DNA from: Tenrec ecaudatus
Taxonomy: Eukaryota > Chordata > Mammalia > Afrosoricida > Tenrecidae
Assembly (NCBI RefSeq): GCF_050624435.1
Contig: NC_134538.1
Coordinates: 118,318,437-118,382,436, forward strand
Direction: 5' to 3'
Length of the DNA stretch: 64,000 nucleotides
Both the position numbers and the translations under genes were made by a program. The notes under the pieces were generated by a model. It saw only the letters and a program-made list of their open reading frames with translations. It ran no database searches and was not told where the DNA came from. Shown here piece after piece: positions 15,501 through 21,500 of the stretch (its first letter is position 1; each line of letters opens with the position of its first letter).

Positions 15501-18500
15501 TGGGGAGGGAGGGGAAAAATGAGGAGGTGATGCCAGGGGCTTAAGTGGAAAACAAATGTTTTGAGAATGATGTGGGCAATGAATGTACAAGTGTGCTTTT
15601 CACAATTGATGTATGTATGGATTGTGATAAGAGTTGCATGAGCCCCTAATAAAATGATTGAAAAAATATAAAGCTATGGAAGCGGTTTCTCAGATTTTTT
15701 TCACTCATAATTATAATGTACTAGACTGACTCTTTACCAAGATCAGATTTCCCCTTTCAACAATTTTTGAAAGGCAAAAAATGATTCTAGAAACTATTGT
15801 CATAGGCAAAATATGATTCTAGAAATTATTGTCATAGGAATATTTGGGTAGCTATCAAAATGAGATATGTCATCAATATATGACTAGAAAGCATTTTAAA
15901 ATGTTTAAATACCATCTCAATCCATACTAGATGTAAATCTAAATTATAGCCCTAAGCATTTAATAATGAATGTTTAACGGCTTTAAGTCAAAGAAAAGCT
16001 GAGATTTGAAAACCTTTCTGTCTTTAATCCATTCATTCACTTTCTTTAAAACATTAAAAATCATATAATAATCACCTTGCTCAAGATACTTACTCAATTT
16101 TTTTTGCTGGCTTGACTAATATATTGACCTGGAGTCGTTTTGCAAATTGTAAAGTGAATCCAGTTATCTAAAAGGAGAACAGAAACTCTGTTAATAAGTT
16201 CAAAATACGCATAAAGGCATAATATGGATCAAATTACTTTGTTACTTAGAAAATTTTCCATTATTGGTATTCCTGACCCCATGAACCATTGAAAGGTTCA
16301 TGAAGTTCATACACTGAACAATTAAAATGGAATTACCTTGATATCTTGTATGCAACAATAGGAAGCCAAGTTTCAGTAATCAAATAAGAAAGGAGGAATC
16401 TGATCAGTAAATTGTGATTAAGAAGGATACAAGTTTTCCCTTCATTTTTGTTTAAAAAATAAACTAAATCAATATTATAGTAGCTCACAGGTTCAACATC
16501 CAAATATGTACGGTGTTCTTCTTCATTTGGATGTAAGCCTTCGATAACTTGCGAAATCTCTGGGCTTGCATGTAGAAAATGAGGAAGTGAAATGTACACA
16601 GGTTTTCCTGAAAACAAGTTTGAAGAGATAATGAGGAGTAAATAAGTCGTTTTCTACATTTTACATATTACTCAGAAAAAAATTCACATATGTTTTGAAC
16701 TCCAAATAAGTGACCTATCCATACATAATTTCCTAATATCAAATGTGCTTTCAATTATATACCTTTAGCAGAAGTAATGATACTATGCCCTATGGAAATG
16801 ATTTATAATGCTTTTTCACATAAAATCATAATTATGACTAAAATGAACCAGGGGCTTCTATACACCATACATAGACTTAATTATAGTCCTAATCTTAGAA
16901 CAATTAGCTTTTATGACATAATCCTACTCTATACTCCCCCTAATGGGAGGACACTGAAGTTAGTGGTGGTAAAGTGTGGTACTGGGCTATGTAGTTAGGT
17001 TGAACTGTAAAACCGCATCATTTGATCTCCCTTTGGACACATTGTAAATTTGCTCCACTTTTTAAAATACTTTCTTCTTTCTTTTCAATTGAGTTTTTCC
17101 TCTGCTTTATTTTGTCATTGTTGTTTTGTTTGTTTCCTGATTTTGTTTGTTTTTCTGTATATGAAATCTAAGCTAAGCGCCTCTATGGAGAGAGTAAATG
17201 GATTAAGACCTCCAGCAACATCTCAGGGAAGCTCAGGAGAATGACAACAAATAGATGAAAGAAAAAATGTTATTAAATAGATTGTGATGATGATTGCACA
17301 AATCTTCTTAAGATGATTGAATTAGCATATTGTATGATATAAGGACATCAGTCTCCACCAATGCCCACCTGCAAGTGAGCCTGGTCTTGTAGGATTTTGA
17401 GTTTGGTTCCATGTTTTTCTCCACTGTAAAGGCATGTAGTGTGATCCTGCTGAAAGCAATTGGGAGTGGTAGTCAGGGACTATCTGGTTCTTCTGGTCTC
17501 AGGTTCTTGGAGACTGGTGTTTATATGAACCACTATTCCACTGTGCTAATGGTTTCCATGTGACTTGTGAATGGGAAGAGGCCAATAGTTGAGCTTTTGA
17601 TGGCCAACGCATAGCCACCCTACAGAAGAGGGTAGAACTGCCCCTGTAAGTTTCTGAGACTGTATGTGGGAGTAGAGGAGAAAGCTCATCTTTCTTCTGT
17701 GGAGTGGCTGGTGGTTTCAAATTGCATACCCTTTAGAACACAACCCACACCCATGACCACTCTGCTACCAGGTCTCCTTTGAGCTTTTCAGATCCCAGCG
17801 ATTGCTCAGCATATGCAGTGGTTCTCAACCTTCCTAAGACCACGACCCTTTAATACAGTTCCTCATGTCGTAATGACCCTCCCACCCCGAAAACCATAGT
17901 TATTTTCATTCCCACTTCATAAGTGTAATTTTGCTACTGTTATGAATTGGGTGACCCCTGTGAAAGGTCATGTGACCCCCAAAGGGGTCACGACCCACAA
18001 GTTGAGAACCGCTGAATTAGGGGATAATGGATTTTCCCAACAAACTGTTTTGAAGCCCCCTCCTATCATTTTTGTCATTGAGTGGTATTGAAGCAGTCCT
18101 GACTCATTGTGACCCCCGAGGACAACCAAGTGAAACACTGTCTGCACATGGACCAGCCTTACAACCGTTCATAGGTTTGAGCTCATTGCTTTCAACTGAT
18201 TGGCTGCTCACATAAGATCACAACATAGAGGGTGATTGTATAATGTCTGCTAAGCCACTGAGCATCATGGCCTATTGACACATAACTCTAACCCCTATAG
18301 TCCAGTACAGATCATTCACATGGCTCTTGAAAGGGGGGTGGTTATCTGTAGAGCAGTGGTTCTCAACCTTCCTATTGCTGTGACCCTTTCATACAGTTCC
18401 TCGTGTTGTGGTGACCCCCCCCAACCATAAAATTATTATCGTTGCTACTTCATCACTGTCATTTTGCTATTGTTATGAATCGGGTGATCCCTGTGAAAGG

Positions 18501-21500
18501 GTAGTTCGAGCCCCAAAGGGGTCGAGATCCACAGTTTGAGCACATGAGCTATGGAGCGCTGTCTTAGTGAACTCTATTATACCCATTGATCATGTTGTCC
18601 CTGGTCCTGAGTCAGCGAACCCAGAACGCATTCCCTCAAGGTGTTTGGTTGTCTTCTGCATGCTCCACCACACTAATGGAATATTTACAGCAAATTTATA
18701 AGGAACACCCTCTGTGAAACTTACATATATTTATGAGTATATACCATTCTCCCTCTTGCATCTATTCAGCCCATATGTTTATTCATGTATTTGCCCATAA
18801 ATCACCATTATTATTATTACAAGATTGGGCATATAATATTATTCACCTCTGTTACCTTTAATCCTTGAACTCCTACCAATGTGTTGAACTGCCACCAATG
18901 TCTGCTTCCTTTGCCTCTAGCAAGCTTTTGTTGCTGCCACTCCCTTATTGGAAATAACCTTCCACTTTGCCCACATTCATATATTCCCACATCTAGAAGG
19001 TACTTTATCTTCCCTACCTCTGCCAACCTTGGTAACCATCAGAGTATATTTATTTCATTGTGAAAATATTTTCTTGACATTTTACAATAGTAGTCTAATA
19101 AAATGCGTATAATATTCTAATTGATTAATTTCATTGAATATAATGTTCACCATGTGCATCCATGTTATGATGTGTTTCACAGATTCATCATTGTTCTTTA
19201 ATGTTGCATAGTATTCCATTGTGTGTGTAGACCATAGTCTACTTATCCATTCTTCCACAGATGAGAAATTAGGTTGTTTCCTTCTGTGTTATCCTCAATG
19301 GTGCTGAGATGACATGGGCCATCCAGCTCTTCATTTCATGACTCTTTTTCTTCTATAATACATATGTACCAAGTAGACTGATTTCCTGTGTGATATGGTA
19401 TCTTATTTCCAAAAGTTAAGGAATTGCCAAGCACTTTTCCATGGTGGTTGCACCGTTTAATACTCGCAGTAGTAGTGTGGGAATGTTCAATTCTCTTTGC
19501 ACTCTTACCAATATTTTGTTGTCATTTGGATCGTTGCTGTTGTGGCTGAGGTGAGATATTTCAGTGGGTTGATTAGCATATGTCCAATGGCTAATGATTT
19601 CAAGCATCTATTCATATACTGGTTGGCTGCATGAATGTCTTTGATGAAGTATCTGTTCATTCATGTCTTCTGCTCATTTTTTAATTAGATTGCATTGTTG
19701 TTGTTGGGAACTTTTCTATAAAATTTAGAGATTAGTCCAGTATCTAGGCAATATTTCCCCATTCTATGGATTCTCTCTACTCTTTTAAGAACACAGCTAC
19801 TTATTTTGTCTTTTGAAGTTTATATGTTTTGGGCTATCTTTGATAGTTAATTTAAGACATATATTAGAGCATCTAAGTTTGCGCCTACTTGTTCTTGGAT
19901 GGTCTCTATAGTTTTAGATTATACACTTAACACTTTCAGTCACCTTGAGTTCATTTCTGTATACACGGTGTGAGATATGGGTACTCTTAATGTTTCTGCA
20001 AATGAATATTGAGTTTTTCCAGAACCATTTGTTTAAAAGACCATCTTTTTCCATGTAATGAATTTCAGCCCTTGGTTAAAGATTTGCTGTGCAAAAATGG
20101 ATAGATTCACTTCTGGATTATCAATTTCTCTCTTTGGTGCTATGCTCTGTACTTAAATATAGGACTTTACATGGAGAGGGATTTCAAGAAAAGGTTACCT
20201 TTTAAAGAATCTGCAAATTATGCCAGGGTCAAGACCTTGAAAATATTTACTCACCTTCTTTGCACTTGCCAATATCTAGAACACCATATAATGTGCAATT
20301 CATTGAGATAACTTTTTCTGTGCAGAAACAATGGTTATCTGGATTTTGAAGTGGAGAAGCAAATGCCTTGGCTGGAAGAACAAATCTATACACAGGAATT
20401 CCTTTCAGATTAACTTCAGAACCAAAGACAGCATAGATTGACCTAAAGGGAGAGTTTTTTTTTTTTTTTCAAAAGAAGAAAACAAACCCAAGCATCATTT
20501 CAGGAGCGGAAATACATTCTGGGAAAAAATAATTAATTGTTATATCATTTGTATTTGGGGTTTAACTTCTTGGAAATAATTCGTATGAATTTTTGTCACA
20601 TCATTTCCTGGATGACTAAATATGAACGTTTCTTAATCTGAAGCTTTTTTTCTGGGAGCAATTTATGCTTTTGAACTCCCTTGGAGTACTGATATGAAAG
20701 ATATTTCTCAGAATTAATTTTCCTTATATATAATATTTAAATGAATATCTCCCAAACCCTTATTTTTGTCCAGCTCAAATGAAATAAAAATAAAGCTTCT
20801 TTCTTTCAAAATGTAGTCCTGAAAGGCCATTCAGTGACTTGAGTGTGTGCCCGTGTGTGCATACTGTAGATCTCACACATCTCCAGCATTTCACAACTGT
20901 CCACCCTGACCTAGGACTCGCAGGTCATCTTTCTCAGATCTTAGGTAACCCTACACAAAGTAGCACTAGTCTCTGCAGTTTTACAGATCAGGAGAATGGG
21001 AGCAGAGACACTAACTGCGTCCCCACAAATGCTCCCATCTTTGGGGAAATCACAGGACTCAAGTATACTGATGGGCTCCGGTGCTTGTGCGTGATTGATT
21101 TTATCCCATCAATTTGACACCCATCCTGTGGCAGTGACAGAGCATATTAGTTAATGTACTTCTGTAGCAGTTTCTGTAATAATTTTTAGAAAGAGTGTGT
21201 TGATCTTCTGGACTCGGTTGTTAATAAATATAGTACTATCTTAATGAAAGAAAAGAAAATTAGTTCTTGCTTTGGTAAACATGAAAAAGACAACCGATTT
21301 TCATTATGTATAATATCATACTACCGTTCTTCAAGGTTTAAAGTGGTAAGCGATGCTAGTAGGAATTCTATATGATATTTAATTTTTTAAATCCAGAGGA
21401 ACTCTCTAAGTGATACTCTCCATTTCCAAATAACATCCAATGTGACCTATTTTCCATGTTGCTACTTAGGGGTGGGGGTGCGAATAATGCACCTGACTCA

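Follow-up and report, generated by a model that had tools for sequence, protein, structure and literature searches.

Two probable SPIN-type hAT MITEs within one CD36 intron

The 64-kb stretch of DNA analysed here (hereafter the window) carries, on its plus strand, two short elements, copy 1 (17816..18014) and copy 2 (18354..18548). With a probability of roughly 92%, both are internally deleted, non-coding MITE derivatives of a SPIN-type hAT transposon, inserted independently in an intron of CD36. The identification made in an earlier note on this DNA is right and the biology is known: the pair is an ordinary feature, such insertions having been described from tenrec before. The SPIN call can be used for annotating the CD36 intron. 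Presumably lineage-restricted, the two copies might be scored as presence/absence markers in tenrec phylogeny, a role for which many further family members would also be suitable.

Setting and anatomy of the two copies

The placement in a CD36 intron, which the earlier note had asserted, was borne out on both sides of the pair. CD36 runs on the minus strand: a tblastn search of the window with a human CD36 protein query returned 14 rows (minus strand throughout, 12 of them below E 0.001), and a Pfam check of four stretches found the CD36 domain (PF01130) in all four. The pair sits between the exon sequence upstream in the gene (20253..20444, minus strand; PF01130 E 9.1e-18) and the exon sequence downstream (16495..16608, minus strand; PF01130 E 3.9e-13), both found by tblastn and both with approximate borders, that is between 20444-20253 and 16608-16495 when read in the direction of the gene. 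Copy 1 is preceded, at approximately 17600–17800, by a SINE-like repeat to which 11 other places of the window are partially related (64–82% identity); this repeat, presumably AfroSINE-like, would be at least as informative for Afrotheria as the SPIN pair. To call the pair the best species clue was therefore an overstatement, SPIN being listed for several mammal lineages in a review (PMC5857283).

The two elements have the same orientation and are separated by 339 bp, a close pair as claimed, although the gap had been put at 340 bp. Copy 1 measures 199 bp and copy 2 195 bp, against 195 bp for the family consensus described below, and they align with each other at 77.6% identity over 196 columns. 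Both are full-length and non-autonomous. As they span nearly the whole 195-bp unit, their shortness belongs to the family, as expected for a MITE. An nhmmer search retrieved copy 1 at E 1e-57 and copy 2 at E 1.5e-65, with a family profile whose training alignment included these two copies themselves. No third family member was detected by nhmmer within the 64-kb window at a relaxed threshold, the next place having an E value of 1.1.

The termini attributed to SPIN are present in the window: CAGTGGTTCTCAACC is found exactly at 17816 (copy 1) and at 18354 (copy 2), and its inverted partner occupies 18000–18014 in copy 1, with two mismatches. Terminal inverted repeats of the SPIN_NA type (CAGYGGTTCTCAACC-like) are thus recognisable, with a diverged right end in copy 2. 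The worn state of this end, remarked upon earlier, is real, as the profile match of copy 2 ends at model position 190 of 195 and the last bases of the element have diverged. The terminal motif taken alone lies within chance, with five matches (at most 3 mismatches) against 1.95 expected and at least five in 6 of 100 shuffles, so that the identification rests on the interiors. Here, the inner 16-mer attributed to both copies is exact in copy 1 (gacccccaaaggggtc), whereas copy 2 displays gagccccaaaggggtc instead.

The family across the genome and its insertion sites

The genome searched was the window's own (3,918,315,410 bases in 2,140 contigs). A first look gave 3,181 candidates with copy 1 as query and 3,946 with copy 2, of which 40 were scored for each query, self match included. 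The 39 other scored matches per copy displayed 83–93% identity with at least 170 query bases covered, and the 80 scored matches (two self matches included) were spread over 18 contigs of 74–323 Mb, representing about 3.06 of the 3.92 Gb; the haploid number is hence probably 18 or somewhat more. With 2n = 30–56 given for tenrecs and 26–34 for golden moles (PMC13063843), a tenrec would be the best fit and a golden mole a poorer one. A family sample of 56 loci was then considered beyond the two self matches, with 7 and 29 loci coming from the two genome searches and 20 selected by place: the element was recovered at every one of them, and both termini at 55. The majority consensus of 55 genome copies is 195 bp long. 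Used as query against the same genome, it gave 0 candidates, in a search that skips very common words and whose empty answers carry no weight. The median K2P distance of the selected copies to this consensus is 0.082, a value biased low, like the other consensus divergences, since the 55 members were those matching one or other window copy best, and thus a non-random set. Against the same consensus, K2P reaches 0.130 for copy 1 and 0.110 for copy 2 at all sites, and 0.103 and 0.077, respectively, when CpG and mixed columns are removed.

The family is numerous. Within 107,743 flank bases, around 36 loci, one additional copy was found (at locus L067), about 970 bp from its neighbour; close pairs hence occur elsewhere too. 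Scaled to 3.92 Gb, this density corresponds to approximately 36,000 copies; as the estimate derives from one extra copy, the total may lie anywhere between about a thousand and 200,000. In a family of this size, the window pair is not notable. Pattern scans of viral contigs and of prokaryote genome contigs returned no match, as expected there.

The 8-mers flanking 55 family copies match each other at a mean of 5.27 of 8 positions, against 3.53 with shuffled partners (the highest of 1,000 shuffles being 3.98), and at least six of the eight positions agree in 30 of the 55 copies versus 7.9% of non-self pairs. Both flanks carry the motif n(T/C)(C/T)TA(G/A)(A/G)n, i.e. one that fits nTCTAGAn. This flank match is the target-site duplication of a hAT element. 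The family thus exhibits the 8-bp nTCTAGAn-like duplications typical of SPIN_NA, and the state of the two window copies differs in this respect. Copy 2 is bordered by CTGTAGAG (18346..18353, plus strand) and CTATGGAG (18549..18556, plus strand), probably the left and right copies of one 8-bp duplication: they match at 6 of 8 positions, a level reached by 0.7% of random pairs of window 8-mers. The exact end of copy 2 is nonetheless uncertain because, among 21 end pairings tried, five shifted ones did about as well, three agreeing at 5 and two at 6 of the 8 positions. For copy 1 the duplication is unrecognisable, with no clear candidate at its borders, the left flank AGCATATG and the right flank AATTAGGG (18015..18022, plus strand) agreeing at only 2 of 8 positions. 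AATTAGGG presents the family target motif at five of six scored positions, a fit equalled or bettered by 5.7% of window 8-mers.

Empty sites were found for other copies of the family. Flanks were joined for 57 queries (the 55 family copies and the two window copies), and for 15 of these a repeat relative was found that crosses the junction without the element, among the 60 of 75 matches displayed. Six of the 15 spanning junctions were inspected, of which five were clean and one (L027) was not. No paralogous empty site was seen for copy 1 or copy 2 among the sequences compared. Since the inserted family copies sit inside these interspersed repeats, they are younger than their host repeats. The host repeats show 61–77% pairwise identity with their relatives (again for 60 of 75 matches), on a scale that differs from that of the SPIN K2P distances to consensus, as a pairwise value counts the changes of both copies and the SPIN set favours good matches.

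These features suggest how the pair may have arisen. The MITEs would have retained just the ends and the subterminal GACCC/GGGTC motifs, which are the expected transposase recognition sites, and a SPIN transposase encoded at another genomic site would have moved them in trans by cut-and-paste. Insertion would then create 8-bp duplications at nTCTAGAn-like targets, and two independent landings, in the same orientation and in one CD36 intron, would have been followed by decay. We infer such mobilisation by SPIN transposase, and both copies are presumably inactive at present.

Separate insertions and family identity

Two copies lying close together in the same orientation could also stem from a single insertion that was afterwards duplicated locally in tandem. 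However, the changes that separate them from the family consensus, 23 in copy 1 and 20 in copy 2, include none in common, against a mean of 2.65 derived changes in common over the 1,596 pairs of the comparison set, a set chosen by similarity to copies 1 and 2, which helps to separate them. Furthermore, the direct repeats reported by the repeat finder terminate at the element borders, and the immediate flanks of the two copies are unrelated. Taken together, the absence of shared changes and the unrelated flanks argue strongly against a local duplication, which we reject as hardly credible; the copies are separate insertions, as the earlier note had maintained.

A different question is to which family these insertions belong. 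The murine SPIN/URR1-type consensus used for this purpose, name included, and the MER5A consensus are provisional versions, both set down with the window sequence already known. The ends of the elements would be equally well explained if the copies were ancient, mammal-wide MITEs of the MER5A/Charlie type, vertically inherited and having only the CAGTGGTTCTCAA... termini in common with SPIN. The provisional MER5A consensus has the same termini, and the first and last approximately 13 bases of MER5A/Charlie MITEs are those of the family, so that ends common to both groups are not diagnostic and not decisive alone. The interiors, in contrast, separate the two. After trimming of 15 bases per end, alignment to each provisional consensus and scoring as z over shuffles, copy 1 matched the murine SPIN/URR1 consensus at 140 of 161 bases (87%, z 20.2) and copy 2 at 150 of 162 (93%, z 25.9), whereas the likeness to MER5A remained at chance level (z 1.7 and 0.7, respectively). 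The interior expected of SPIN_NA is thus found, as judged against the provisional consensus. A better match to a MER or Charlie family, the outcome that the earlier note had named as contrary to its SPIN assignment, was not seen with the provisional MER5A consensus, the one such family compared. In addition, for 15 of the 57 joined-flank queries, family members sit inside other interspersed repeats, and those copies are younger than their hosts. A MER5A identity is accordingly rejected, its probability being very low, and the assignment of both elements to a SPIN-type hAT family is upheld by their near-full-length match to the family and by interiors that fit the provisional murine consensus. 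Between the family consensus itself and the provisional murine consensus, 186 of 192 aligned bases are identical. This near identity also speaks against OposCharlie1 (OC1), hAT1 or some other hAT family that reached tenrec horizontally, a reading which appears improbable, if slightly less so than MER5A. In PMC3621081, OC1 is a horizontally transferred family with tenrec among its hosts, where it counts 6,837 copies at a mean distance of 8.1% from consensus, near the figures obtained here; it is likened to the present family by description only, and mouse is absent from the OC1 host table given there.

Printed mouse sequences offered a further comparison for the SPIN-type assignment. Three fragments match the family consensus at 19 of 19, 18 of 19 and 16 of 16 bases, largely by construction, as they contain the 15- and 16-base family pieces used to find the papers. 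Two other fragments, Pqbp1 site 84 and Ate1 Scr R2, are independent of the search terms. The former agrees with the provisional murine consensus at 22 of 24 bases, better than any of 1,000 shuffles, and this match crosses the border of a 34-base stretch that is missing from the family here. For Ate1 Scr R2, no match to the provisional murine consensus was obtained (517 of 1,000 shuffles were as good), and neither fragment exceeded shuffles when compared with the family consensus. The provisional murine consensus is thus backed at one independent place only, Pqbp1 site 84. All fragments derive from mouse studies (PMC2767504 and PMC2837401, which share their primers; PMC10570371; and PMC3713010, the source of Pqbp1 site 84).

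Horizontal transfer, age and comparison with known elements

A horizontal arrival of the family is suggested by the literature and by its near identity with the provisional murine consensus, which agrees with such a transfer. A review (PMC5857283) dates the arrival of SPIN in galago, murine rodents, opossum, tenrec and vespertilionid bats to 15–46 My ago, and SPIN_NA_1_Et is a named tenrec subfamily (PMC3183009). Tenrec is therefore a reported SPIN host, as the earlier note had stated. Its description of the pair as a mark of horizontal transfer holds for the family, already reported as horizontally transferred in that review (PMC5857283). It does not hold for the pair, as no new evidence of a transfer can come from two members of so abundant a family.

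Substitution rates of 2.2–3.5e-9 per site per year would give the two copies an age of roughly 22–59 My. This range is too wide for the copies to be placed relative to the split between tenrec and golden mole, dated at about 49 My in PMC13063843. A very limited literature search found no report of SPIN in an afrotherian other than tenrec. It is conceivable, though rather unlikely, that the genome analysed here comes from an afrotherian in which SPIN is unpublished, the published host being the tenrec Echinops telfairi; it could, for example, be another tenrec lineage. For a species that is not a member of Tenrecidae, the entry of SPIN would predate the tenrec–golden mole split (about 49 My, PMC13063843), or there would have been two entries. 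For another tenrec lineage, the minimum date of the SPIN invasion would move back to the common ancestor with Echinops telfairi, and the two CD36 insertions would be available as markers of that invasion.

Among known elements, the murine URR1-type, in its provisional version, has a 34-base internal stretch that the family of the window is without, whereas the latter has three extra bases in a C run. As for SPIN (Space Invaders) and its non-autonomous SPIN_NA derivatives, no difference from the family appears. Both have in common their termini, the subterminal GACCCCC..GGGGTC palindrome, nTCTAGAn-like 8-bp duplications and a short non-coding body.

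Other repeats of the window

Seven longer repeats, each with 5 to 7 overlapping self-matches when the window was compared with itself, occupy positions 6636–7466, 14326–15672, 26217–27393, 30068–31072, 31148–31949, 34851–36137 and 47456–47732, and are perhaps candidate 3′ ends of LINEs. Positions 17600–17800, near the first SPIN-type copy, hold a member of an old SINE family, which we take to be AfroSINE-like, with 11 further, partial relatives within the window (64–82% identity). Places of this SINE family in the window were also matched by the joined flanks (the two sides of a SPIN-type copy fused without the element) of some copies elsewhere in the genome, e.g. 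locus L010. Inside the CD36 gene region, a 22-bp unit is present as three perfect tandem copies (22788–22854).

A further close pair of SPIN-type copies

Another genomic locus, L067, carries two SPIN-type copies in the same orientation (1501–1687 and 2656–2846), spaced by approximately 970 bp, and is thus a further instance of a close pair.

Relation to mouse sequences

SPIN-type elements are presumably common in mouse. The oligonucleotide ATE Scr R1 is given as a mouse Ate1 screening primer in two published papers (PMC2767504, PMC2837401). It falls in the terminal repeat of the SPIN-type element, with 18 of 19 aligned bases identical to the family consensus, a match largely by construction, as the mouse papers were found by searching with pieces of the family. 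Were the element indeed that common in mouse, this primer would match many genomic places. Compared with the murine type, the element family as reconstructed from this genome lacks a 34-base internal stretch.
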